From positions 1 to 21,508 of the IMG/VR virus record IMGVR_UViG_3300049008_000044: a stretch of DNA of 21,508 nt. One strand, given 5' to 3'. This document shows positions 1 through 21,508 of this stretch, piece after piece (the stretch's first letter is position 1; the number at the start of each line of letters is the position of its first letter). The translations under genes and the position numbers were made by a program. The stretch comes from a virus. Under the pieces are notes generated by a model. That model saw only the letters and a program-made list of their open reading frames with translations, made no database searches and had not been told where the DNA came from.

Positions 1-58
1 CTATTTAAGATAACACTTAGGATATACTCAGCTATTACTTAACAGCTTAGTGTCTGCT
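1..58. repeat. 58-bp direct repeat shared by both window ends (left copy)
   Basis: Bases 1-58 are identical to 21451-21508. The right copy runs to the last base of the window, so the true repeat may be longer. This is what a circular assembly graph or a direct terminal repeat gives. If the ends are joined, the unit is 21,450 bp. Confidence 0.95.
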
Positions 59-1162: not shown

Positions 1163-1179
1163 CTTTCTATATAAGGTAC
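1163..1179 (-). promoter_or_regulatory. Candidate single-subunit-RNAP promoter P1
   Basis: The minus strand reads GTACCTTATATAGAAAG. The 17-bp site recurs at 4224-4240, 5878-5894 and 20282-20298 with only one variable position (T or C at base 2 of the core context). TATAG followed by purines resembles T7 and SP6 class promoters, where transcription starts at the G. It lies between the ThyX stop and leader hairpin copy B, and would drive the 81-aa and 68-aa genes. Confidence 0.75.
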
Positions 1180-1201
1180 CTATCTTTGCGTAGTAGATTC
1201 C

Positions 1202-3902: not shown

Positions 3903-4159
3903 AGTGTAATCTCAGGTTGGGTTTGTTCCCACGGACTCTCAGGTACTGCAATACAATAAACTGCACCCCAAAAATCTACACAGATGTATGGTGAATTTAC
4001 ATATGTGGTATAAAGCACTGATAGCGGAGAATTACCGTCACACCACCTAACCTTACCTTGACAAGCCTTCATTACTATCTTAAAGTTAGATTCAGTATTT
4101 CTAACCTTAAAAGGCTTCTTGTCTTTTATCTTCTTACAAACTCTTTGAACAGGTGTCAT
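3899..4159 (-). CDS. Small protein, paralogue of the 100-aa gene at 4985-5287 (86 aa)
   Basis: Family not known to me. The 86-residue product shares a clear core with the 100-aa protein at 4985-5287: PFK(V/I)-x-x-T-(E/K)SNFK(I/V)(V/L)MK near the start and a CVD(F/Y)W block with following V/A/T residues near the middle. The core suggests a small folded domain with alternating strands and one helix. It is the first gene after the promoter at 4224-4240 and leader hairpin copy C, and GGAGAG precedes its ATG. Two such paralogues in separate transcription units of a compact genome suggest a useful, possibly host-directed role. Confidence 0.75.
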   Translation of the reverse strand: MTPVQRVCKKIKDKKPFKVRNTESNFKIVMKACQGKVRWCDGNSPLSVLYTTYVNSPYICVDFWGAVYCIAVPESPWEQTQPEITL

Positions 4160-4177
4160 AGTTGCTCTCCTAAATTA

Positions 4178-4221
4178 CCTAAGGAACACCTCTGGCCAAC
4201 ACGGCTAAGAGGCTCCTCAGG
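4178..4221 (-). other. Conserved leader hairpin, copy C
   Basis: Third copy of the leader element, with three base differences from copy B. Two keep pairing: the outer stem becomes CCTGAGGA/TCCTTAGG (an A-U becomes G-U), and CCTCT/GGAGG becomes CCTCT/AGAGG (a G-U becomes A-U). The third weakens the inner AGCC/GGCT stem. Retained pairing argues for selection on RNA structure. It sits between the promoter at 4224-4240 and the 86-aa gene. Confidence 0.8.
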
Positions 4222-4223
4222 TT

Positions 4224-4240
4224 CTTTCTATATAAGGTGC
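4224..4240 (-). promoter_or_regulatory. Candidate single-subunit-RNAP promoter P2
   Basis: Minus strand GCACCTTATATAGAAAG. It begins directly at the stop codon of the SleB-like gene (TAA overlaps its upstream edge) and is followed by leader hairpin copy C. It would drive the accessory operon from the 86-aa gene to ThyX. Confidence 0.75.
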
Positions 4241-4678
4241 TTACTTTAACGCTAAGTGTTTAACAGTGAAGAACTCATGCCCACCAATCTTTCCTGTGCT
4301 TACACCACCTTTAGCTTTCTGCCCTTTACTCCGCCATGCAACAGCACCACCTGTAACGTCTTTGGTTGTTCCATTAAGGACTTCTCTGGCGGCTGCAAGG
4401 AATACTGAACCTATGCTTCCAGGTAGTTCCTTTTGTTTAGCAGGGGTGTTACACACAGTTTTGTGTGACTGCTTAGAATGGTGTAGCGTAGTTTGCATCA
4501 CAGCCACCACACCTTTGATTGATTCACCCCTGGCCTCTGCGTAAGCTATCTTGGCCAGACATTCTACTTCACTAGCCTTTCCTTCTACAGCATAGATTAG
4601 TGTTACTATTAGGATAACTCCCATGATTGCACCTAGTAGAAACTGGTCTTTGTGTTGCGGTCTTTTATAGTTATTCAT
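4241..4678 (-). CDS. SleB-like cell-wall hydrolase with N-terminal membrane anchor
   Basis: This matches the SleB/Hydrolase_2 family of peptidoglycan-cleaving enzymes. Residues 41-60 carry the family core CLAKIAYAEARGE with the likely catalytic Glu48, and the C-terminal part shows the family ending DVTGGAVAW (107-115) and GKIGGHEFFTV (129-139). Residues about 13-31 form one hydrophobic segment after a basic N-terminus, which looks like a signal anchor; a signal-arrest-release enzyme is possible. AAGGAAA precedes the ATG at 4678. Far from the lysis genes at 13.7-17.4 kb, it could instead act in wall penetration or late lysis. The family call is good; the role is uncertain. Confidence 0.8.
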   Translation of the reverse strand: MNNYKRPQHKDQFLLGAIMGVILIVTLIYAVEGKASEVECLAKIAYAEARGESIKGVVAVMQTTLHHSKQSHKTVCNTPAKQKELPGSIGSVFLAAAREVLNGTTKDVTGGAVAWRSKGQKAKGGVSTGKIGGHEFFTVKHLALK

Positions 4679-5856: not shown

Positions 5857-5879
5857 AGAGCTAAGACATCCTTAGCTCT
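5857..5879 (-). other. Leader hairpin D (9-bp perfect stem)
   Basis: AGAGCTAAG (5857-5865) pairs with CTTAGCTCT (5871-5879) over a 5-base loop. It begins at the 3' edge of the promoter at 5878-5894 and ends about 15 bases before the NADAR start codon. Its sequence differs from copies A-C, but its place, directly after a promoter, is the same. Confidence 0.8.
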
Positions 5880-5894
5880 TTCTATATAAGGTAC
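5878..5894 (-). promoter_or_regulatory. Candidate single-subunit-RNAP promoter P3
   Basis: Minus strand GTACCTTATATAGAAAG, starting one base past the stop codon of the MuF-RNA polymerase gene. It would drive the unit from NADAR to the SleB-like gene. The wider context TAGGGTACC resembles P1 (TAGGTACC). Confidence 0.78.
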
Positions 5895-5895
5895 C

Positions 5896-8800
5896 CTATC
5901 CTACGCCATAGAATCCAAGGTCTTCTGAGAAGCCCTCTGGTATAGGTGCAAGTATGTCTGACTTCTTAAGTATGTCAGATTCAATGATTACTCTCCCGCC
6001 TATAACACTTCTACCTGCGACTGGGATTAACCCTGTATCAATAGCTTCATTAAGATACTTATCGAACAACTCTTTTGGAAGACCTCTGTTTCGCATCTCA
6101 GTGAGTGTATTAAACACTACATTAGAGTCTAACATCGTTGCATATATTTCTCTAAGAGCTTTACGTCCAGCTAACATATCGACAGTATTCATGAAAAAAG
6201 CGTCATGTATAGTGCTTGTCTTAAGACCTTTACTCTTTCCCCATAAATGAAACCTCTTAACTATAACAGCGTCATTTGAGTGGTTTCCATTCACTGCAAA
6301 CGCAGTCCTAGCACTAGACACATCTGCAATATCATTTATCTTACCTTCTGCATTGATTACTTGTTGCCACCAAGTTGCCTCTGTCTTCTGAGGAACTTGT
6401 ACTATGTTGTTTACCCAGTTGCCATTCTCATTCTTATAGTGCAGACGCTCCTCGAACTTAGCTGTAAAGTTCTGTTCAATAACCTTTCCGTCAAAGTTTA
6501 CCCAAGGGACATTCGTCCATGCTCTAGGGAGTTTGTTAGCAGTGAATAGTTTGAACTCGAACAACTTCTTGACTTCAAAGAGTTCAACCTTAAGATACTT
6601 AGCTCCAGTTCTACGATACTTAGGTGGAGCTTCGCCATACAAGATAGAGTGAAGTGTACTCTTAGGTTGCCAAGGTCCCCATCGTTTAAGCATCTTCTCA
6701 CTAACTGCTTCGTTAGCCTTTAATCCTAACACCTCAGACACAATAGGTGGAAGTTTATATCCAGCTTTTTCAGTACCTAATAGCTGAGTTTTAGCCACTT
6801 CTTTCCAGTCAAAGGCAGAGTTCTTAGGCTTGGCTGTCTTCATGTAATCCTCAGCTAACCTTCCAAAGAACTTAGTAAAGCCTTTTAACACAGGTACTTT
6901 CTCAGACAAGTGCTTAGACATAATCTTAGCTATGTTGGAGAAGTCTTGAGGTGTTATGACACGGTCGTACTGTGATGTCATCTTACGAACTAAGTCCTTG
7001 GTCTTAGGGTCAAGGAAGTAAAGTTGTTCCATAATCTCATCATCAATGCTCAGGCCTTTGTTAAAGATGTCCTTCACATTCTTACGAAGAGCTTGATACT
7101 CTGCGTAGGTGTCAGGGTCGAACCTGTAGCGGGCTGCACGGGCTGAGATTTCATCTAACACAATATCACGGTCACTTGCTTTGACTACAAGTGTTCCTTG
7201 TTCTTTACCTAAAACTTTAGCTAACTTTCCTTCAACACTAAGTATCCCAGTACGCTCACCAGCACCATAGAATGTCACCATGTTCTGAGCCTTGGCTGCC
7301 TTACGCAAATCTTTCTCAGTAAGTCCTAGCTTCAAGTTAAGTGTCTTGAACTCAGGGTCATCAAAGGTAGCTGCTGCAATCTCATCATACAGCCTACGCT
7401 TCTGAGTTGTAGGGATTACATTAGACATAGCCGCAAGCTCCTTATTGCGAGTAGTCATTGCTATGATTTGTGCACCAGAGCTTGAAGCATCTTGCTCTAA
7501 GGCTAAGGCTGTTTTATAGTCTATAAGTGTAGCTAAGTTCTCAGGGGTGTAGGCATCTCTTCGGGAAGGTTTAAACTGCCAATCTTTTACGGTAGATGTC
7601 AATCCACCATCATACCCGAACTCTAGCTCCTTAGGTTTTCCTGGAACTATTACAATCTCCCCTTCCTTCTTAACTAACACATCCTCTTGAATCCATAACT
7701 CTCTTGTTAGTGTTACATTAGGTGTTTGTGCAAGAGTTGGAGAGTACGTCTTTGGATTACCTTCAACTTTGTACACATACAATCGCTTACCTGCAATATC
7801 TGAGTTTATCTTCCTAAGTGCACCTTGTAGTGTCTCAGATACAGACACCCTAGGAGTCTTCACATTCTCATAACCTTTAGATGTAATGTAATTATAAGGT
7901 ACTTTAGGTGTTAAAGTTAGTGAATCTAACGGTGTTTCACTGACATAAAACAAACCATCATCTAAGTAGAAGTTTCTGACGTTATTCTCTAAGAACTTAT
8001 CTATCTTAGCTGTTTCCATAGCGAACCTGTAGAACTTACCAAACTCTTCACCTTCTACACCTGCTGCGAAGTCAGACTCAAGGATAAATCTTATATCTGC
8101 TGGTTTAGCTCGCAGCATAGCATTACCTAGTTCTATCATCTTAGGCCGCCACATCTTAGCGACCTCTTGACGGCCAGTCATACTTAAGGAGTTGTAAGGA
8201 CCCTCAAACTTATCAGACAGACCTCCTAGAAATGCCCCAATTTGGTCTTGGAAGTTATCAAAAGCCTCCTTAGAGAAGTTCTTGGTTTCTTCTGTGTTCA
8301 GATAAGGTCTAAATGTCTCACCTGACTGAGGGCTTATCATGCCTCTATCATAGACCCTTGCACGATGGTCTACGAAGGCATGATTAGAGAAAGCTGTGTT
8401 TTCCTTAGACAACCACTCCATAGACTTAAAACGTTCATAGGCATCACCACGTCCACCTATATAGTGTTTATATTCATTAAGTCCATCGTAGAACTTAGCC
8501 TTACCTTTATCATCTTGGTAATACAAGAGTTTCTGTGTGAAGTTGTAGAACTCGGGGTCAATCCTGTACTTAGCCTCACCTGCCCAGTTCATAGCATCAG
8601 CTAGAGAGTCATCCACAAGTTCATCAGGGAAGTCCTTAAAGGAGTTAGTTGATGTGATTGGAATCCTTGTATCTTCATAACCTAAGACACCTCTGTCAGT
8701 CCAGTAGGTCTTATATCCAGGTCTAATCACTAGCTTGTTCTTATCAGAGGTTACAGCAGTACGCAACCCAAGCTCTACCTTGCGGGTTAGATTGGAGTAC

Positions 8801-10932
8801 TCCAAGATACGAGGGTCAACAATACGAAGGTTGTAAGATATTGTGTCATAGTAAGGTCCGAAGTAGGTACCACTCATGCGACTCTTCATACGCTTCTTCT
8901 GTACACCAAAAGTCTCAATCTTAAAGTATTTACTTACACGGTTAGAGTTCAATATCTTAAGTCCTGCTTGATACCAAGTCTCTCTACTGCCATTTAAGTT
9001 GGCATGGTTATACAAGTCACGTCCTAAAGATAGTGCTAAGGAGTCTCTATCAGGCCCGTCAGCCATACCTAGTCTATGTGCAAACCTAAGATAGAACTGT
9101 TGAAGGTCTCTATCACTGAGTCTAGCGCGGACAACTAAAGGTATATCACGAGTTATTAATCCATGTAAGTCACGAGCTATCTTAGGGGCTACTTTATCTT
9201 CCCACAGATTCTTAGCACGGATATTAGGCAGGAAATTGTCGTGAAGCTCCTGCAAGGTTGTTTGTCCTAGGATAGAGTCTGTATAGCCCTCTAACTTTAA
9301 CTTCTTGAGAACGTCTGAACCAGACCTTATAGATGTTTCAATCATATCAGATACATTCATTACATCAAACTTCATCTGTGATACGGACACAGCCTTAAAG
9401 TTACCCCAGGCTTGTGGGTTCTCTCTAAACCTTGTGAATAACACTCTGAGGTTCTCTGTAACAGCAACAGCTTCGTTTACACCTAAACTGTCTCTCATTG
9501 TCTCAGAGAAGTTAGTTATGAACTCCTTGTCGGCAACCGTTAACACTTTACTATCATTGACTAATCTTCTACTTGAATCTATTGAAGCGAAGCTAGGTTG
9601 ATACCTACGGACATCTTCATAGTTTCTTGTTACAGGATTAAATATAAGTTGTGCCTCTGTAGGTAAGTTATTCAATACCCTTGTACGCATCGAGCGTTTA
9701 CTTCCTATTAGCACACCACGGTAGTTAGTTAGGCTCAGTAAACCTTCTAAGTCACCTCCTTGCAATTCATAGTATTCCTTCAATGTTTTCTGTAACTCTT
9801 TGCTTGCAATAAAATCATCAGGTGTTGTTGCCCACAGTTTAAGGGAATCTAGCTTCTGTTTAGCGTGTGCAAACATTACTGTATCTCCTTCCATTATGTA
9901 ACTATTATCTAGTGCTCTTAACTGCTTGATGCTCAATAAGTCACCTACTTTATTTACATATTTATCTAGTGTCAAATTACCTTTCTGGAATAAATTAACC
10001 TTGACATCAGAGCCTAGGTGTTTCATTTGAACTTCAACAGGCTGCCTAGTAAGCCAGTCTTGATAGGATTCAGATAAGGCTGTGTTTCCGTCATAATAAG
10101 CCTTCTGTTTATCTGACAGGCCAGCTAGGTTTCTCTTACGGATGTGCTGGACTGAATCTGAGGAGGCTGCCATACTCCAACTCTTAAACACAGGTGAGGT
10201 AGTAGACCTGCAATGCCAGTGAGCAGGAGGTAAGTGAGCATAGTCTCCCAAAGGGAACACCTTGTGGTCGCGGCTTGCACACAAGTTAGTAGTGCGGCTG
10301 TCAAGTACGGCTATATATTGCCATCCAGAGAGTATGTGCGAGTTAGCCTCAAACACTTGCTGGTCAGCCTGGGCTGCCACGCTTGTTGTTGCTGTGACTA
10401 CTAAACCTTTAGCCTGGTTTCGGGTTATTGCATGGACACTTCCTTTGCGAACACTCTGTGCTATCTCTGCTTGAGACAAACCTTCTGACAATCCTTTTGA
10501 TATTACACCAGATAACCTCTTACGTTCATCAACTGAGATACCTTGCCATCCTTGTTCAAGTGTCATATCACTATGTAAAGGTTTCTTTAATACAGTCTCA
10601 GTTATTGACCTTTCAGGTCTTAGGATTCTGGCTATCTTTCCACCTATAGCTTCTAAATTGCCATAAGTGTAAGATACTTGGTTTGATGCAAGCTCCAGTA
10701 AACCTCTCTTTGTGACACTATGGTTAGTTGTATGTGTACGTTCTATCTCTGTTTTAATCTTTGCTGTTAAGGCTTGCTTGGAACCTTTGTGGTTTCCTAT
10801 TAGTTTATCTAACTTGGTTTCATGTTGAGTTAAGTTCACTGAAACTTTACTACTCATGTTCTCTTCATAAGACCTTAGAGCGACAGCACGGTGGACACTT
10901 GCGTCATAAAGGTCTGTGTTTGCGTTGTTCAT
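5896..10932 (-). CDS. MuF head protein fused to a T7-type single-subunit RNA polymerase (putative virion RNAP)
   Basis: This 1,678-residue protein has two recognisable parts. Residues about 120-250 are a MuF-like head-morphogenesis domain, ending in AVLDSRTTNLC (208-218), PPAHWHCRS (235-243). Residues about 780-1678 carry the catalytic signature of single-subunit DNA-dependent RNA polymerases: DHRARVY (855-861; T7 DWRGRVY), motif A LEQDASSSGAQ with Asp1148 (T7 Asp537), motif B R1210-x3-K1214-x7-Y1222-G1223 (T7 R627, K631, Y639, G640), HSND at 1551-1554 (T7 His784), and motif C IHD with Asp1577 (T7 Asp812). Both catalytic aspartates are present, so activity is expected. The middle (250-780) is unassigned and may hold promoter-binding or virion functions. 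AGGA precedes the ATG at 10932. MuF proteins sit inside heads near the portal, so packaging in the virion is inferred; N4 is the precedent for an injected polymerase. Confidence 0.88.
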   Translation of the reverse strand: MNNANTDLYDASVHRAVALRSYEENMSSKVSVNLTQHETKLDKLIGNHKGSKQALTAKIKTEIERTHTTNHSVTKRGLLELASNQVSYTYGNLEAIGGKIARILRPERSITETVLKKPLHSDMTLEQGWQGISVDERKRLSGVISKGLSEGLSQAEIAQSVRKGSVHAITRNQAKGLVVTATTSVAAQADQQVFEANSHILSGWQYIAVLDSRTTNLCASRDHKVFPLGDYAHLPPAHWHCRSTTSPVFKSWSMAASSDSVQHIRKRNLAGLSDKQKAYYDGNTALSESYQDWLTRQPVEVQMKHLGSDVKVNLFQKGNLTLDKYVNKVGDLLSIKQLRALDNSYIMEGDTVMFAHAKQKLDSLKLWATTPDDFIASKELQKTLKEYYELQGGDLEGLLSLTNYRGVLIGSKRSMRTRVLNNLPTEAQLIFNPVTRNYEDVRRYQPSFASIDSSRRLVNDSKVLTVADKEFITNFSETMRDSLGVNEAVAVTENLRVLFTRFRENPQAWGNFKAVSVSQMKFDVMNVSDMIETSIRSGSDVLKKLKLEGYTDSILGQTTLQELHDNFLPNIRAKNLWEDKVAPKIARDLHGLITRDIPLVVRARLSDRDLQQFYLRFAHRLGMADGPDRDSLALSLGRDLYNHANLNGSRETWYQAGLKILNSNRVSKYFKIETFGVQKKRMKSRMSGTYFGPYYDTISYNLRIVDPRILEYSNLTRKVELGLRTAVTSDKNKLVIRPGYKTYWTDRGVLGYEDTRIPITSTNSFKDFPDELVDDSLADAMNWAGEAKYRIDPEFYNFTQKLLYYQDDKGKAKFYDGLNEYKHYIGGRGDAYERFKSMEWLSKENTAFSNHAFVDHRARVYDRGMISPQSGETFRPYLNTEETKNFSKEAFDNFQDQIGAFLGGLSDKFEGPYNSLSMTGRQEVAKMWRPKMIELGNAMLRAKPADIRFILESDFAAGVEGEEFGKFYRFAMETAKIDKFLENNVRNFYLDDGLFYVSETPLDSLTLTPKVPYNYITSKGYENVKTPRVSVSETLQGALRKINSDIAGKRLYVYKVEGNPKTYSPTLAQTPNVTLTRELWIQEDVLVKKEGEIVIVPGKPKELEFGYDGGLTSTVKDWQFKPSRRDAYTPENLATLIDYKTALALEQDASSSGAQIIAMTTRNKELAAMSNVIPTTQKRRLYDEIAAATFDDPEFKTLNLKLGLTEKDLRKAAKAQNMVTFYGAGERTGILSVEGKLAKVLGKEQGTLVVKASDRDIVLDEISARAARYRFDPDTYAEYQALRKNVKDIFNKGLSIDDEIMEQLYFLDPKTKDLVRKMTSQYDRVITPQDFSNIAKIMSKHLSEKVPVLKGFTKFFGRLAEDYMKTAKPKNSAFDWKEVAKTQLLGTEKAGYKLPPIVSEVLGLKANEAVSEKMLKRWGPWQPKSTLHSILYGEAPPKYRRTGAKYLKVELFEVKKLFEFKLFTANKLPRAWTNVPWVNFDGKVIEQNFTAKFEERLHYKNENGNWVNNIVQVPQKTEATWWQQVINAEGKINDIADVSSARTAFAVNGNHSNDAVIVKRFHLWGKSKGLKTSTIHDAFFMNTVDMLAGRKALREIYATMLDSNVVFNTLTEMRNRGLPKELFDKYLNEAIDTGLIPVAGRSVIGGRVIIESDILKKSDILAPIPEGFSEDLGFYGVG

Positions 10933-12244: not shown

Positions 12245-13732
12245 CTAATACTCCTGTTTAGTTTGTTTAGGGATAAGCTCAGAAGAGTTAATCTCTTCTA
12301 TTGCTTCTTTGTCATCGTAAGTCTCAGGGAGTAAGTCATTCTTCCGTAGCAGTGATAACCACACAGACCTAGGGAGTAACCCTTGTTGATACCATTCGGT
12401 AGCAAGCCGTAACCAATCTGCACCAATAGGGGTAGGGTCAAAGTCCACAGAAAGTTCAACAGATACTTCATAAAGCTTGTTATACTTCCAGAAAAGCATA
12501 CACTCAATAGCTGCTTTTAAGGACGTGCATATTTGTGTATTTAGAAGACCTAGTTGAGATGTCTGTGCAGAATCCCTAAGTTCCAGCGCAACACCTGATT
12601 GAACGTTCTCAGGTGCTAACATACGCACACCTAGTTTAGCTAAATCTTCTATAGACGATGCGATGGCTTTTTCCATATCTTGAAGAGCCTCTGTGGGAGT
12701 AGCTAATACACCTATTGTATCACCCTGGTCGAGCCTAATCCAAGAACCTAATCCTGCTGATATAGCATCCTCGAATGATTCTTTGTTCATAGTGGTAGAA
12801 ACCCAAGGTGTGTACGCCGCAGAGTTGTACAGCAGGTGGTTTCTTCTACTTAGTTTGTTGTACAGAGACACCTCTTTATTAACAAATGTGCCAAGGAAAG
12901 GTTGCACTATATCAATACTACCGTTTGTTGGCCACGCTGGGATATATGTTAAAGGTTTGTCACTTGCCTGTGGAGTGACAGTATCTATCAGCTCAAAAGT
13001 AGGAGCCTTTCTGTTAGTCTGTGACTGAACCTTGCCCTCTGATACAATGGCGCCATTAGTTACTTTGTGTTTATAGTGAAGTATCTCGTAATTACCTTCT
13101 TTGTTTAATTGGTGGACATACACAACTTCTGTCAACACAGGGTGGTAAGGGCTCTCCTCAGTAAACTCCTCGAAGAACCCTCTGATTATAACTCTAGATA
13201 GATTACCTTCTCTATCTGCTGCCCAGTTGATAACATCTTGTGCTCTCCACACTACAGGAAACGGAAACACATCTTTACCTGATTCAGAGGGATGGTCCAC
13301 ATATATCCATGAGCGACTTGTCTGTAGCTCCTCTATTAATACTTCCTGCAAAAATGACACAAGAGATGAGTTATTACTACCTATCTTCGAGGCCAACCAC
13401 TCATCTACTTCTGCTGGTGTACCTTCGGGAAGTACAATCTTAGGAGCCTTTCGCAGAAGACCTCCGATTAAGACTCTTAAGAATTGGCTGGTAACTCCTG
13501 GAAGTTCAGCTTCTGCTCTATAGAAGTTATACTGTGTTTGCGACATAGATGCACTGAAGGGTATCAACAGGTTGCTGAAATTAACTAAGTCCAGTAAACC
13601 GTCTAACTCCTTTACAGCATTCTCACCACTACATACCGCATTACACTTTACCCAAGTAGGTAACATAGACTCGTACGCAGGGCACGGGTCAGCTACATTC
13701 TTAAAGGTTTGGTTACTAACTTGAACTGCCAT
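12245..13732 (-). CDS. Portal protein (DUF4055 type)
   Basis: Portal proteins form the dodecameric ring at one head vertex through which DNA enters and leaves. The 495-residue protein fits the DUF4055 portal family: an N-terminal PAYESMLPTWVKCNAVCSGENAVKE block, FYRAEAELPGVTSQFLRVLIGGLLRKAP, a central SRSWIYVDHP strand, and the clip-to-stem region from about 330 with LGVRMLAPENVQSGVALELRDSAQTSQL. Length is normal. AAAGGAGA precedes the ATG at 13732, which overlaps the end of the membrane coiled-coil gene by 17 bp. MuF proteins are normally encoded near portal genes, which agrees with the MuF domain two genes downstream. Confidence 0.88.
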   Translation of the reverse strand: MAVQVSNQTFKNVADPCPAYESMLPTWVKCNAVCSGENAVKELDGLLDLVNFSNLLIPFSASMSQTQYNFYRAEAELPGVTSQFLRVLIGGLLRKAPKIVLPEGTPAEVDEWLASKIGSNNSSLVSFLQEVLIEELQTSRSWIYVDHPSESGKDVFPFPVVWRAQDVINWAADREGNLSRVIIRGFFEEFTEESPYHPVLTEVVYVHQLNKEGNYEILHYKHKVTNGAIVSEGKVQSQTNRKAPTFELIDTVTPQASDKPLTYIPAWPTNGSIDIVQPFLGTFVNKEVSLYNKLSRRNHLLYNSAAYTPWVSTTMNKESFEDAISAGLGSWIRLDQGDTIGVLATPTEALQDMEKAIASSIEDLAKLGVRMLAPENVQSGVALELRDSAQTSQLGLLNTQICTSLKAAIECMLFWKYNKLYEVSVELSVDFDPTPIGADWLRLATEWYQQGLLPRSVWLSLLRKNDLLPETYDDKEAIEEINSSELIPKQTKQEY

Positions 13733-17063: not shown

Positions 17064-17432
17064 TTAACCTTTAAGTTGAAAGTGCACACCATCTTTGAAA
17101 GTCTTCCAGTCGCCGCCCCATTCGATTATTACATCTAATTCTTTAGCAGCTTGTTTCATAACTTCGGCAATAGAAATATAGTATCTCCATTCCCAACTCA
17201 CTACACCACCAGGCATAGCAAATAAGTCTACAGCTCTCCCTGTAAGATGTTTAGAGTTCATAGTCTGAGACTTTCCAGAAGAGACTAGCATACGTTGTTT
17301 TTCGACAGACCTTAAACCTTCACCTACCATAAAGTCAACTTGCGTTAATTCAATAGCTCGTTTCACTACACTAACTAGAGCAGGATTAACACCCTCCATC
17401 TTAGTTAGAGATTTATCACTTAAACTGTACAT
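17064..17432 (-). CDS. M15-family peptidoglycan endopeptidase (endolysin)
   Basis: The enzyme cleaves peptide cross-bridges or stems of peptidoglycan at lysis. The 122-residue protein has the M15 zinc motif: SKHLTGRAVDL with His62 and Asp69, and the later DGVHFQL with Asp114 and His117. Its size matches single-domain endolysins of the L-alanyl-D-glutamate peptidase kind, such as that of phage T5. There is no signal peptide, so release depends on a holin. The start overlaps the terminase stop as TGATG. Active-site residues are intact. Confidence 0.9.
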   Translation of the reverse strand: MYSLSDKSLTKMEGVNPALVSVVKRAIELTQVDFMVGEGLRSVEKQRMLVSSGKSQTMNSKHLTGRAVDLFAMPGGVVSWEWRYYISIAEVMKQAAKELDVIIEWGGDWKTFKDGVHFQLKG

Positions 17433-18730
17433 CAGAAATGCCTTCCAGGACTATGTCTTGGTGTTGTTGATTGAATTGGAAAGTGATAGTGTATACCATA
17501 ACGGATACCATCACTAAAATGCTCGATACTCTCAGACTTATCAACGGTAGCTGTATCACCGTTTCCTGGAGTCCACTTAGTTCTTTCTAAGCTTTTAATT
17601 GCCCCTACACATCTTGGATGTATGTATAGGTTTGTTTCACCAGCCGCTGTCATTAACATAGCATTAACTGATTTAGCACTATCTACTATTGAAGGTGCAG
17701 CCCTAGGAGCTAGACAGGTTATTCCTGCGTTCTCTAGTATGGTGAAATCTGTCTTGCCTACTGCGGCTGATGTCTTCCTGCTACGCCCAGAAGGGTCAGG
17801 ATGTGCCACTATCTTGTGTCCAGCATAATGTGATACTAACATCTGAGCTAAGACCTCTGTATTAGGCGCACCCTTGAACTCTTCTAGTATATGTACCTGT
17901 CCGCCTCTTAAAGCCCATGCAGTAGAGGCTTGAATAGCTACGTTAAAGTCTATATTCACATAAACTACTTCTCCTGGCTGGAAGTCCTCTAAGTCTTTAC
18001 GGATGTGAATCTTACGGTCAAAGCAGTAGAAGATACTATTACCAGACTCTTTGATTTGCACTAAGTATTCTGAGGCAAACACTACAGGGTCTAGTTGGTG
18101 CTTGAGCTTTTCTATCTCGTCTGCACTAATGTAAGGGCTAGTTGTGTAGTCAAAGCTAAACGCCATCCAATCTTGGTGAGAATTGTCCCAGCCAAGCTCT
18201 AGACACTCAGCGAAGAAGTTGAAGCCAGCGGTAGTGCTAATCATCAAGCAGCGAGCCACTCCAGGCCAGCGAGTTACAAGGGCTGGCTGAATAACACCTT
18301 CCCAAGCTTTGATAGGTCGCAATCCTTTATTACATGAGCTTACTTCATCCCATATAACAAAGTATGCCCCTTTTCCTCTCATGCGTTCTATTGATTCATA
18401 GGACAGAAGTCTAAGTTCTACACCACCTTCAAATCTAAGAATACCTCTATCAGCACTGCTTGATGTGACATAGTATTCCATCTGCATCTCATACATCAGC
18501 AAAGGATAATATATCTCTACAACATCGCTGTGTGTTGGTGCTATTATGTATACATTTTTATTCAGTGTCTTAGATGGCATATCTAACAGCTCAAAGATAG
18601 CTTTAATTGCAGCTGATGCAGCTAGGAAACTCTTCCCCCAACCACGAGAACAAGCAACAGCATAATAACTAGACTGCTTTCTAATAAAGACCTCGGCAAA
18701 GACTTGTGTCTGCTTACTGTGAAGCTTCAT
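17432..18730 (-). CDS. terL: Terminase large subunit
   Basis: TerL is the ATP-driven motor and nuclease that packages DNA into the head through the portal. The 432-residue protein shows Walker A CSRGWGKS (27-34), Walker B FVIWDE (124-129; Asp128, Glu129), the coupling motif STTAG (165-169), and nuclease residues in NIDFN (Asp261) and HPDPSGRSRKTS (Asp312). Length is in the normal range, though at the shorter end. AAGGA precedes the ATG at 18730, which lies within the end of the HNH/AP2-like gene upstream. Both ATPase and nuclease parts look intact. Confidence 0.93.
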   Translation of the reverse strand: MKLHSKQTQVFAEVFIRKQSSYYAVACSRGWGKSFLAASAAIKAIFELLDMPSKTLNKNVYIIAPTHSDVVEIYYPLLMYEMQMEYYVTSSSADRGILRFEGGVELRLLSYESIERMRGKGAYFVIWDEVSSCNKGLRPIKAWEGVIQPALVTRWPGVARCLMISTTAGFNFFAECLELGWDNSHQDWMAFSFDYTTSPYISADEIEKLKHQLDPVVFASEYLVQIKESGNSIFYCFDRKIHIRKDLEDFQPGEVVYVNIDFNVAIQASTAWALRGGQVHILEEFKGAPNTEVLAQMLVSHYAGHKIVAHPDPSGRSRKTSAAVGKTDFTILENAGITCLAPRAAPSIVDSAKSVNAMLMTAAGETNLYIHPRCVGAIKSLERTKWTPGNGDTATVDKSESIEHFSDGIRYGIHYHFPIQSTTPRHSPGRHF

Positions 18731-19334
18731 TTATGTAATCCTTAGCAATTCTCAAAAGAGCTTCTCGAAGTCTGATATCCTCTTGCTTCAATGCTATATC
18801 TTTTATCAAGCTACCCTTAAAGTTTCTATAAGCAAAAGACGCTGCTGCCTCTGTAAGGTAGTAACCTATATGTTTACTTTTACCATCTACCTTACAAGTT
18901 GCCCTAAACTTTTGCCTACAAGCCCTCCAATTCACGCCTACAACACAAGAACCTCTTGAAGCTGCACAATCTAGCATGAGTTTATTAATCTGTTGTGTAA
19001 CAAATATACAAGTAGTAGGAGAATAGAGTTTATTACCTTCTACCAGTAAATCTTTATCAAGACACTTATCTTTCCAATCTTGAGACTCCATCCAAGCTTT
19101 AAACTTCGTAAAGGTAATCCACTCACTGCAAACAGAACACCCTTTATAAGTCGGATTTTTATCTTGAAGGTTTGTGTTGTAACACCTCTTTAACATACTT
19201 GTCCATACGTTGTAGTACGGGCACTGGCCTTCATCTTTGAGATTAACAATATAAGGTGCATCATTAATACCAACGCCCTCAACTAAACCTCTCATAGTTA
19301 GTGACCAAGGACTTGCTTCTTGTTCTATAAACAT
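18714..19334 (-). CDS. HNH/AP2-like putative homing endonuclease, paralogue 1
   Basis: The 206-residue protein closely resembles the one at 19622-20245. Shared blocks are GINDAPYIV, YNVW-x-x-MLKRCY, PTYKGCSVCSEWITFTKFK, and LDKDLLVEGNKLYSPTTCIFV, then NKLM. The last block resembles a degenerate HNH nuclease core. The C-terminal part, with KHIGYYLTEAAASFAYRNFK, resembles an AP2 DNA-binding domain. Phages carry many such proteins, often called HNH endonucleases, and they commonly lie next to packaging genes. Catalytic residues are not clearly all present, so activity is uncertain. AGGAGT lies ten bases before the ATG, just after the terminator at 19354-19409. Confidence 0.7.
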   Translation of the reverse strand: MFIEQEASPWSLTMRGLVEGVGINDAPYIVNLKDEGQCPYYNVWTSMLKRCYNTNLQDKNPTYKGCSVCSEWITFTKFKAWMESQDWKDKCLDKDLLVEGNKLYSPTTCIFVTQQINKLMLDCAASRGSCVVGVNWRACRQKFRATCKVDGKSKHIGYYLTEAAASFAYRNFKGSLIKDIALKQEDIRLREALLRIAKDYINEASQ

Positions 19335-19418: not shown

Positions 19419-19625
19419 CTAGTTACACATAGGTAACATTAACTCTTCAATGTTATACTCTGTGATGTAACCGTGGTTGTAAATTCCATGTTTAACTGGA
19501 ACTTTAACTCTGGACGTATCTCTTACCCATACCTTAGGGATACCTGTTACTTTCCATCTGGACATATCTTTAATGGTGTACACAATATCACCAACCTTTA
19601 GGGCCTTTGCCTCTGAGAGTGTCAT
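19419..19625 (-). CDS. Small SH3-like protein of unknown function (68 aa)
   Basis: The 68-residue product looks like a small beta-barrel: KVGDIVYTIKD, WKVTGIPKVWV, VKVPVKHGIYNHGYIT and NIEELM form successive strands. Such SH3-like or translation-barrel-like small proteins are common in phages and have no single function. The start overlaps the stop of the HNH/AP2-like gene as ATGA. The terminator follows its stop by ten bases, so it is the last gene of a short early unit. Confidence 0.65.
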   Translation of the reverse strand: MTLSEAKALKVGDIVYTIKDMSRWKVTGIPKVWVRDTSRVKVPVKHGIYNHGYITEYNIEELMLPMCN

Positions 19626-20245
19626 TGTAGTAACTCCGCAGATATACGCAACAAGGCTTCACGAAGTCTAGAATCTTCTTGCTGCTCTGCAATAACCTTA
19701 ATAACACAGCTCTTAGCTGTATTGTAGACTATGGAAGCTTCTCTATCAGATTTAAAACTCCCTAGGAATATTCTTTTTCTACTCTCATTAACCTGAACTA
19801 CATACTTGCCTAGAGCTTTGTTATAAGTAACACCTAGACTACAATCACCTCTTGCATTTTCGCGACTGTTCATAAGCTTATTAAGTGAGTGTGTAACAAA
19901 GATGCAGGTATCAGGGGAGTACACCTTATTGCCAATGACTAAAAAGTCCTTGTCTAACTGCATACCTTTCCAATCTCTAACTTCCATCCAGCTTTTGAAG
20001 TTGGTAAAGGTAATCCATTCAGTACATACAGAGCAACCTCGGTAGGTAGGGCATCTCGCTTGATAGCGACTCCCATAGCACCTTTCCAACATATTCATCC
20101 ATACACTATAGAACGGACACAAGACCTTCTTACCGTCAAGCCTTGTACTGACTATATAAGGCGCATCGTTAATACCTACACCTTTAATTAAACCTCTCCT
20201 GCTAATAGATGCGTATGTTGCTTCCACTTCTATAAATTCATTCAT
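19622..20245 (-). CDS. HNH/AP2-like putative homing endonuclease, paralogue 2
   Basis: The 207-residue protein is the paralogue of the one at 18714-19334, sharing GINDAPYIV, VWMNMLERCY, PTYRGCSVCTEWITFTNFK, LDKDFLVIGNKVYSPDTCIFV and NKLM. The C-terminal part is a better AP2 match here: SLGVTYNKALGKYVVQV with RIFLGSFKSDREASIVYN. AGGAAGA precedes the ATG at 20245, directly after the promoter at 20282-20298 and its leader hairpin. The pair flank a 68-aa gene between the possible TerS and TerL genes. They may be mobile or regulatory; active-site integrity needs structure comparison. Confidence 0.72.
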   Translation of the reverse strand: MNEFIEVEATYASISRRGLIKGVGINDAPYIVSTRLDGKKVLCPFYSVWMNMLERCYGSRYQARCPTYRGCSVCTEWITFTNFKSWMEVRDWKGMQLDKDFLVIGNKVYSPDTCIFVTHSLNKLMNSRENARGDCSLGVTYNKALGKYVVQVNESRKRIFLGSFKSDREASIVYNTAKSCVIKVIAEQQEDSRLREALLRISAELLQ

Positions 20246-20261
20246 TATCTTCTTCCTACAT

Positions 20262-20283
20262 AGCCTAGGACAACCCTATAGCT
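20262..20283 (-). other. Leader hairpin E
   Basis: On the minus strand AGCTATAGG pairs with CCTAGGCT over a five-base GTTGT loop, with one bulged A and one G-U. It starts at the downstream edge of the promoter at 20282-20298 and ends before the HNH/AP2-like start codon, as at the other three promoters. Confidence 0.65.
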
Positions 20284-20298
20284 TTCTATATAAGGTGC
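20282..20298 (-). promoter_or_regulatory. Candidate single-subunit-RNAP promoter P4
   Basis: Minus strand GCACCTTATATAGAAAG, starting directly after the stop codon of the possible TerS gene, as P2 does after the SleB-like gene. It would drive the HNH/AP2-like gene and, through partial readthrough of the terminator at 19354, the large terminase and late genes. Confidence 0.75.
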
Positions 20299-20874
20299 TT
20301 ACTCTTGCGCCACAACTTCGAAGTACTCTTCGCTATCCAGTTCGATAACAAGCTTAGGTTTCTCTAAAGGAACATTTGCAGGAGTTACTGGAGAGTACCC
20401 GTATTTAAGTAGAGCATTAGCTATGTCAATCTGCTTAGATATAACATTAAGGTGTCCGTCAAGGTAATAAGCCTGAGGTTTACCATCAGCCTTTAACACC
20501 TCTACTGTCTTGTCTCGGATACCAGCTTGACGGTCTGACTCTGCTTCAAGTTGGTGGTACTTATCTACTAGCGCACCTAAAGGGTCGAAACCTAGGTCAT
20601 AAAGTCTATCCCTAGAACCTTGGCCTTTACGAACCCCTTTAGTCATCTGTGAAGCCCTTGTTGGAGGTGCTGCGGCGAAGGCAAGTAAGGCGACTGCCAA
20701 CTCGTTATCATCAGACACATAGTGTTGACCGTCCTTTATGTAGACACTAACATATATATCATCCCTTATGGAGCTGTTGAACTCGTTGTATACTATTGTG
20801 CCATCCCTTCTCTTTACTGTACCGTAGTAAGGCAATGATGACTCCTCTAGGAGCCAGGTGAAACTGTTAGGCAT
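20299..20874 (-). CDS. Possible terminase small subunit (191 aa)
   Basis: The 191-residue protein is not firmly recognised. A block GFDPLGALVDKYHQLEAESDRQ (about 99-120, given here in part) followed by IDIANALLKYGYSPVTP is reminiscent of small terminases and related phage proteins, and the gene lies three genes before TerL. A helical DNA-binding part is plausible around the Arg/Lys-rich MTKGVRKGQGSRDR segment. I chose the ATG at 20874 because AAAGGAGG lies five bases before it; the in-frame ATG at 20946 adds 24 residues without a ribosome site. It borders the repeat-rich non-coding region, which would suit a packaging-site protein. Confidence 0.45.
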   Translation of the reverse strand: MPNSFTWLLEESSLPYYGTVKRRDGTIVYNEFNSSIRDDIYVSVYIKDGQHYVSDDNELAVALLAFAAAPPTRASQMTKGVRKGQGSRDRLYDLGFDPLGALVDKYHQLEAESDRQAGIRDKTVEVLKADGKPQAYYLDGHLNVISKQIDIANALLKYGYSPVTPANVPLEKPKLVIELDSEEYFEVVAQE

Positions 20875-21508
20875 AAAGCCTCCTTTGTAATGAAGCTGGT
20901 TAAGGGTATATCTCAATATCCTCGGAAACCACCTTAGGTTATACATATCTGATTAATACTATGACTGTATCTCTCCGAAGGTAAGCAACATTAAAGACTA
21001 CCTTAGTGGATAGCTAAATGATAGACCTTCGATACTTAACATTAAATGTAGTTAATAGCAGCAGTAGTATATACCAGATGATAGCAAAGAGGATACCTAT
21101 TGTAAGTGTAACAGCTTAATGACTCAGGTAGGTAGAGAGTACAAGTGCATAACCAAATGTGTGTATATACTCTACGTTAAGGAGCATCCCCTAGGCAAGC
21201 AATAAGACACCCTTAGATTAAACCCTCTCCTAAGTAGACTATCTTAGTTACGTTTTGGAGTTACTCTAACAGAGGTACACATACATAGGAACCTCAAGGT
21301 TACAACCTACATAACATAACACTTAGGAATATACAGCTATAACTACTGATAGCTTAGTGGCTGCTATTAGCTCTCCCTTAGAGCACCTTACTGAATACAT
21401 AGTACAGATACCTAGGAGTTATAGTAAATAGCAGCTACCTTAGTATATATCTATTTAAGATAACACTTAGGATATACTCAGCTATTACTTAACAGCTTAG
21501 TGTCTGCT
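20875..21508. other. Non-coding region, right part, upstream of all genes
   Basis: No credible gene on either strand. The stretch is AT-rich, dense in CCTAAG/CCTTAG words and TATATAC-like runs, and includes the first degenerate repeat unit (from about 21319) and the right copy of the 58-bp repeat. None of the strong GYACCTTATATAGAAAG sites occurs here, so how the first gene is transcribed is unclear. With bases 1-512 it makes a continuous ~1.1-kb non-coding region across the join, the best candidate for an origin, packaging site or genome terminus. Confidence 0.6.
21319..21508. repeat. Degenerate tandem repeats and right copy of the 58-bp repeat
   Basis: A unit opening with ACTTAGGAATATA (21321) recurs as ACTTAGGATATA at 21465 (equal to 15 on the left) and ACTTAGGAATATA at 131. 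Shared later words include AGCTTAGTG, TGCTAT and CTACCTTAGTATATATCTAT / CTACCTAAGTATATACCTAT. The unit is 144 bp then 116 bp long. Bases 21451-21508 equal 1-58. Confidence 0.75.

Follow-up and report, generated by a model that had tools for sequence, protein, structure and literature searches.

A MuF head protein fused to a T7-type RNA polymerase, a candidate virion-packaged transcription system of bacterial viruses

We examined a viral DNA sequence of 21,508 nt (IMG/VR record IMGVR_UViG_3300049008_000044, positions 1–21,508), hereafter the window. A gene at 5896..10932 on the minus strand encodes a protein of 1,678 residues that begins with ATG and contains no internal stop codons. The first-pass annotation of this DNA had described one uninterrupted frame joining an N-terminal MuF domain to a single-subunit RNA polymerase (RNAP), and the frame and both parts held up in our analysis. 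We refer to the gene as MuF-RNAP. Two small genes separate it from the upstream portal protein gene (12245..13732, minus strand; phrog_145, E = 1.8e-56), and the terminase large subunit gene is at 17432..18730 (minus strand; phrog_2, E = 3.5e-20). The window portal was ~50% identical to the portals that adjoin MuF-RNAP in relatives, and the terminase was ~53% identical to those of relatives. This 21.5 kb fragment lacked a second RNAP, and because MCP, tape measure, and DNA polymerase genes were not recognized on it, it probably does not represent a complete genome. An exact 58-bp direct repeat, lying within AT-rich, repeat-laden non-coding DNA, occurs at both contig ends (window positions 1–58 and 21451–21508). 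Two ~206-aa proteins adjoining TerL (18714–19334 and 19622–20245) resembled paralogues, possibly of the homing type, and had no matches in the fetched loci.

Pfam matches to the MuF and RNAP parts both exceeded the curated cut-offs. PF04233 (Phage_Mu_F) matched residues 143–245 (window 10198–10506; E = 3.5e-9, 37.8 bits vs a cut-off of 29.6) and the PHROG head morphogenesis family phrog_241 spanned residues 1–344 (E = 7e-61), which we delineated as the MuF/head-morphogenesis region (9901..10932, minus strand). Residues D211, C218, H238, and C241 of this region were invariant in 57/57 rows of an alignment of the window protein and 56 relatives. PF00940 (RNA_pol) matched two segments of the C-terminal half (E = 1.1e-9, 38.1 bits vs a cut-off of 22), and phrog_414 RNA polymerase also matched the fusion protein (E = 2.2e-18). 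A MuF domain and a single-subunit RNAP are joined here in one protein. A structural model of residues 1–700 was weak (pTM 0.43) and its MuF part had no significant match in the PDB, so the MuF assignment rests on sequence. The connector between the two parts (residues 345–561; 9250..9900, minus strand) was mostly helical in that model and had no Pfam or PHROG family matches. The earlier annotation had left ~530 residues between the parts unassigned; this now applies to residues ~345–561, while residues 562–780 are the N-terminal region of the polymerase itself.

The polymerase half carries the signature motifs of the T7 family. The DxRxRVY motif (D855-x-R-x-R-V-Y; 8350..8370), which corresponds to T7 DWRGRVY, motif A with catalytic D1148 (E1146-x-D1148-ASSSGAQII; 7462..7497), and motif C (H1576-D1577; 6193..6219), which aligned with T7 HDSF, were conserved in 57/57 rows (all minus strand). 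Profile comparison aligned DxRxRVY and motif A with T7, and a PDB profile search aligned motif C. Motif B (R1210-x3-K1214-x7-Y1222-G1223; 7264..7305, minus strand) had K, Y, and G in all 57 rows. Its arginine was not universal: 52 rows have R, 3 have Q, and one each has A and K. Both catalytic aspartates were in register as had been proposed, and the residues invariant in 57/57 rows included D855, R857, R859, Y861, D1148, G1153, K1214, Y1222, G1223, H1576, and D1577.

An AlphaFold2 model of residues 479–1678 built with 51 sequences (pLDDT 80, pTM 0.77) returned T7 and mitochondrial RNAPs as its top Foldseek matches (E = 2.7e-15). With VIA-align, the model superimposed on T7 RNAP with Z 28.1 (3.5 Å over 525 residues), on POLRMT with Z ~24, and on N4 vRNAP with Z up to 18.3. 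Residues 38–883 of T7 RNAP matched model positions 84–1200, which places the start of the polymerase near residue 562, and we therefore delineated the single-subunit RNAP fold as residues 562–1678 (5899..9249, minus strand). The predicted fold has the palm and fingers of T7 RNAP, as the first-pass assignment implied. Profile, motifs, and modeled fold all place the protein among the single-subunit (T7-type) RNAPs, with RNA synthesis as its predicted activity. A PDB sequence search with the single protein as query found no match at E up to 10, and T7 RNAP appeared weakly in the PDB profile search (E = 0.02). The top row of that profile search, PH1932 (1e-4), was a probable chance match. A beta-rich insertion of ~140 aa precedes motif A (residues 991–1127; 7552..7962, minus strand); it reached at least 60 residues in 7/57 rows, had no match in Pfam or in GenBank phages, and matched phrog_5043 weakly (E = 0.002).

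A first scan of IMG/VR recovered 42 MuF-RNAP loci, and a scan with a profile gave 578 relatives, the 80 best being retained. At 82 loci from independent metagenomes and two GenBank phages, an ORF free of internal stops aligned with the full length of the query. When the search started from the portal, 80/80 of the best relatives found matched the fusion over all the sequence that could be traced (53 full-length, 24 truncated at a contig end, and 3 with a match ending inside the contig); some of the cut members were too short to show the catalytic part, and a MuF-only member was not found among them. Among 84,980 species genomes, relatives occurred in a single MAG, on two contigs, which fits lytic phages rather than prophages. 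Strong matches to the polymerase half in GenBank phages were limited to EBPR siphovirus 1 and the Naomviridae DSS3_VP1 and DSS3_PM1. The proteins are annotated there as ‘head morphogenesis’, ‘minor head protein-like protein’, or ‘head protein’ plus ‘hypothetical protein’, with the RNAP half unrecorded. In DSS3_VP1 and DSS3_PM1 the accessions of the fusion protein are YP_010105321.1 and QGH74736.1. The DSS3_VP1 member is ~31% identical to the window protein and keeps the catalytic Asp, Lys, Tyr, and Gly residues and DxRxRVY.

Several relatives carry Group I introns (RF00028) within the MuF-RNAP gene, five at locus L042 (11367–16484) and others at L018, L027, L028, and L038. The in-frame breaks fell near residues 691, 874, 1219 (motif B), and 1577 (just past the catalytic Asp), and breaks beside catalytic motifs fit a gene under selection. 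In EBPR siphovirus 1 (L044, 15046–20419), a single MuF-RNAP gene is divided into gp47 and gp49, with an HNH endonuclease gene, gp48, between them; this locus had no Rfam intron match at the cut-off.

Gene order was portal > MuF-RNAP > scaffold > MCP > adaptor > MTP > TMP wherever the fetched contigs reached, with the names from scaffold to MTP given by position and similarity to one relative, except in DSS3_VP1 and DSS3_PM1, where the MCP and TMP are annotated. By gene position MuF-RNAP is a MuF head protein, adjoining the portal and preceding scaffold and MCP in relatives.

Every record of at least 60 kb also encoded a stand-alone RNAP (27/27, from sets of 8 and 19, with MuF-RNAP cut by the contig end in one; best PF00940 E values down to 1e-82). 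Records <60 kb, including the window, contained MuF-RNAP only, as expected of fragments. Several of the stand-alone RNAP genes were split, near motif B in L051/L063 and L052/L064. In DSS3_VP1 the stand-alone RNAP is YP_010105349.1. Against a classical T7-like set (T7, SP6, phiKMV), the stand-alone RNAP gave a profile E value of 3e-76 and MuF-RNAP one of 9e-13, and classical profile scores were 49 to 53 bits for full-length MuF-RNAPs vs 252 to 332 bits for the companion nvRNAPs. Profile-profile comparison of MuF-RNAP with the stand-alone RNAP gave only E = 0.0036 and Prob 9, vs 3e-76 between the nvRNAP and the classical set. These profiles assign the stand-alone RNAP to the classical T7 clade and MuF-RNAP to a separate deep branch of the same superfamily, so a recent duplication linking the two polymerases is not supported.

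The first-pass annotation had also tied 17-bp sites in this DNA to MuF-RNAP. In the window, RGYACCTTATATAGAAAG occurred as four perfect matches on the coding strand, with 0.13 expected even at up to 3 mismatches. The promoter-like site GGTACCTTATATAGAAAG at 5878..5895 begins directly after the MuF-RNAP stop codon, and exact copies are at 1163..1180, 4224..4241, and 20282..20299 (all minus strand). Relatives share AACCCGTTAAATTAACCCAGG instead, found ≤60 nt from the MuF-RNAP stop in 34/60 intact loci and, in 4/5 genomes examined, in the stretch separating the stand-alone RNAP from the genes that follow. The window site at 5878–5895 holds the place that matches AACCCGTTAAATTAACCCAGG after MuF-RNAP in relatives. 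In T7, class II promoters follow gene 1. By position, the promoter-like elements after both RNAP genes look like a better fit to the stand-alone RNAP, so the 17-bp sites are not assignable to MuF-RNAP and the earlier link was not borne out. In several genomes, other repeated motifs occurred upstream of the stand-alone RNAP; these are candidate MuF-RNAP promoters, and no early promoter for MuF-RNAP was identified with confidence. The sequence ACCCGTTAAATTAACCC (GTTA-AAT-TAAC) is a possible N4-like hairpin promoter, with no compensatory change in its stem.

MuF-RNAP shares its fold, motifs A, B, and C, and DxRxRVY with the RNAPs of T7 and the Autographiviridae, but forms a deep separate branch and is attached to a head protein. 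In T7 the polymerase is synthesized in the cell rather than carried in. The virion polymerase of N4 is packaged and injected, and is paired with RNAPII (PMC4496689). Like N4 vRNAP, MuF-RNAP has a single-subunit RNAP fold, is encoded among virion genes, and has a second phage RNAP in the same genome, though that second enzyme is a heterodimer in N4 and a single T7-like chain here. The N4 protein has ~3,500 aa and flanking domains other than MuF (PMC5512222, PMC12633501), with an HExxH metallopeptidase-like domain behind the RNAP (PMC5512222); the HExxH motif is absent from MuF-RNAP. Motif C of MuF-RNAP is the T7-like HDAF, unlike that of N4 vRNAP, and hhalign detected no sequence homology between the two (Prob 0.35). 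Membership in the N4 vRNAP family (schitovirus gp50, Schitoviridae) was rejected on sequence, though the folds resemble each other.

The long-tailed phage P23-45 likewise has an RNAP fused to a virion protein and a stand-alone RNAP, namely a TMP-fused vRNAP and the gp64 nvRNAP, each with separate promoter motifs (PMC10770324). Its RNAP differs in having an unrelated two-barrel fold and in being tethered to the tail tape measure rather than to MuF. With MuF-domain proteins (SPP1 gp7, Mu gpF) and MuF-toxin/polyvalent fusions, MuF-RNAP shares an N-terminal MuF domain, a portal-adjacent gene, and a C-terminal enzyme. The available portion of the Iyer 2017 survey (PMC5512222) lists MuF fusions with PBECR, 2H, RelA/SpoT, and other enzyme domains, proposes their delivery to the host, and confines N4-like virion RNAPs to N4-like phages or prophages; a MuF-RNAP was not found in that portion. 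Nor did the open searchable literature yield an account of a MuF-tethered RNAP, in agreement with the first-pass statement, and a prior remark in subscription papers is possible.

We consider it likely that MuF-RNAP is a tethered virion RNAP: it would be packaged at the portal, leave the head along with the DNA, and begin early transcription, with the second RNAP gene among its targets. Packaging, ejection, transcription of the first genes, and handover are inferred by analogy with N4 (PMC4496689) and P23-45 (PMC10770324). The candidate virion-packaged transcription system of the first-pass annotation is supported by its domain matches, predicted fold, gene position, and companion RNAP, with packaging and ejection resting on these precedents. 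The MuF part would be made with the late head genes and join the portal vertex during capsid assembly, carrying the T7-fold polymerase into the head. At infection the polymerase would leave with or ahead of the DNA, become active in the cell, and transcribe the first phage genes, including the stand-alone T7-like RNAP gene. The stand-alone RNAP would then transcribe the remaining operons, each enzyme using its own promoters.

A variant compatible with this reading is that a protease frees the polymerase from MuF at head maturation and the fusion serves as a packaging device only. Head proteins are often processed, and the poorly assigned connector at residues 345–561 separates the two halves. 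We nevertheless judge cleavage unlikely: neither a cleavage site nor a dedicated protease was identified, the RNAP domain in P23-45 virions belongs to a tape measure protein of full size (PMC10770324), and that of N4 is part of a giant polypeptide (PMC12633501). It is improbable, more so than cleavage, that an active polymerase is never delivered and instead works late in the producing cell in transcription or replication priming, with MuF used for localization or as a structural extra. Because the gene belongs to the late head operon, its product is probably made late, and T7-type RNAPs can also prime replication. However, the gene for N4 vRNAP also lies among virion genes, near-complete relatives already encode a dedicated stand-alone RNAP, and a portal-associated tether has no obvious use in cytoplasmic transcription. 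A catalytically dead, structural remnant could account for the strong divergence from classical T7 RNAPs and the non-universal motif B arginine, yet this is very improbable given that both catalytic Asp residues, Lys, Tyr, Gly, and DxRxRVY are kept in 57/57 rows and in the DSS3_VP1 member, and the Group I introns beside catalytic motifs fit a selected gene. The joining of two genes by an assembly or annotation artefact, for which nothing spoke, is ruled out for practical purposes by the 82 intact end-to-end loci.

Returning to the tethered virion RNAP, we favor on balance, and with less assurance, the broader view of a large siphophage lineage, the Naomviridae with their dU-DNA among them, that delivers a T7-fold polymerase anchored by MuF via the portal, starts its genome without host RNAP, and hands over to a separate T7-like RNAP. 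The viruses of this family are bacterial and mostly known only from environmental DNA. What would be new is a virion RNAP with a new tether on an independent RNAP branch, and MuF would be the carrier of a full transcription engine. If correct, this is a further, independently evolved virion-RNAP tether besides N4-type and tape-measure fusions, adding a widespread portal-vertex-fused family to the few phage groups from which virion RNAPs are known. It also predicts early transcription independent of host RNAP in a widespread phage group. Fusion at the portal vertex would give the polymerase a defined anchor point inside the head and makes its passage through the portal a directly testable question. 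The roseophage DSS3_VP1, whose genome is complete and whose laboratory host lineage is named, is a test case. DSS3_VP1 and DSS3_PM1 have dU-DNA (PMC12697855), a template that a virion RNAP of their own would suit. These results also correct annotations in which an RNAP goes unrecognized behind the label ‘minor head protein’.

The gap between MuF-RNAP and scaffold contained short UGU-triloop hairpins with varying 4-bp stems in 44/60 loci (e.g. GAGU-UGU-ACUC, GGGC-UGU-GCCC, AGAU-UGU-AUCU), and also in DSS3_VP1. These hairpins showed no clear genome-wide enrichment in five genomes and were frequent only in this gap. In the window, near-identical hairpin-forming repeats at 783–848, 1095–1160, and 4155–4220 lie in the stretch from a promoter-like site to the following start codon, and are perhaps 5′ leader structures.
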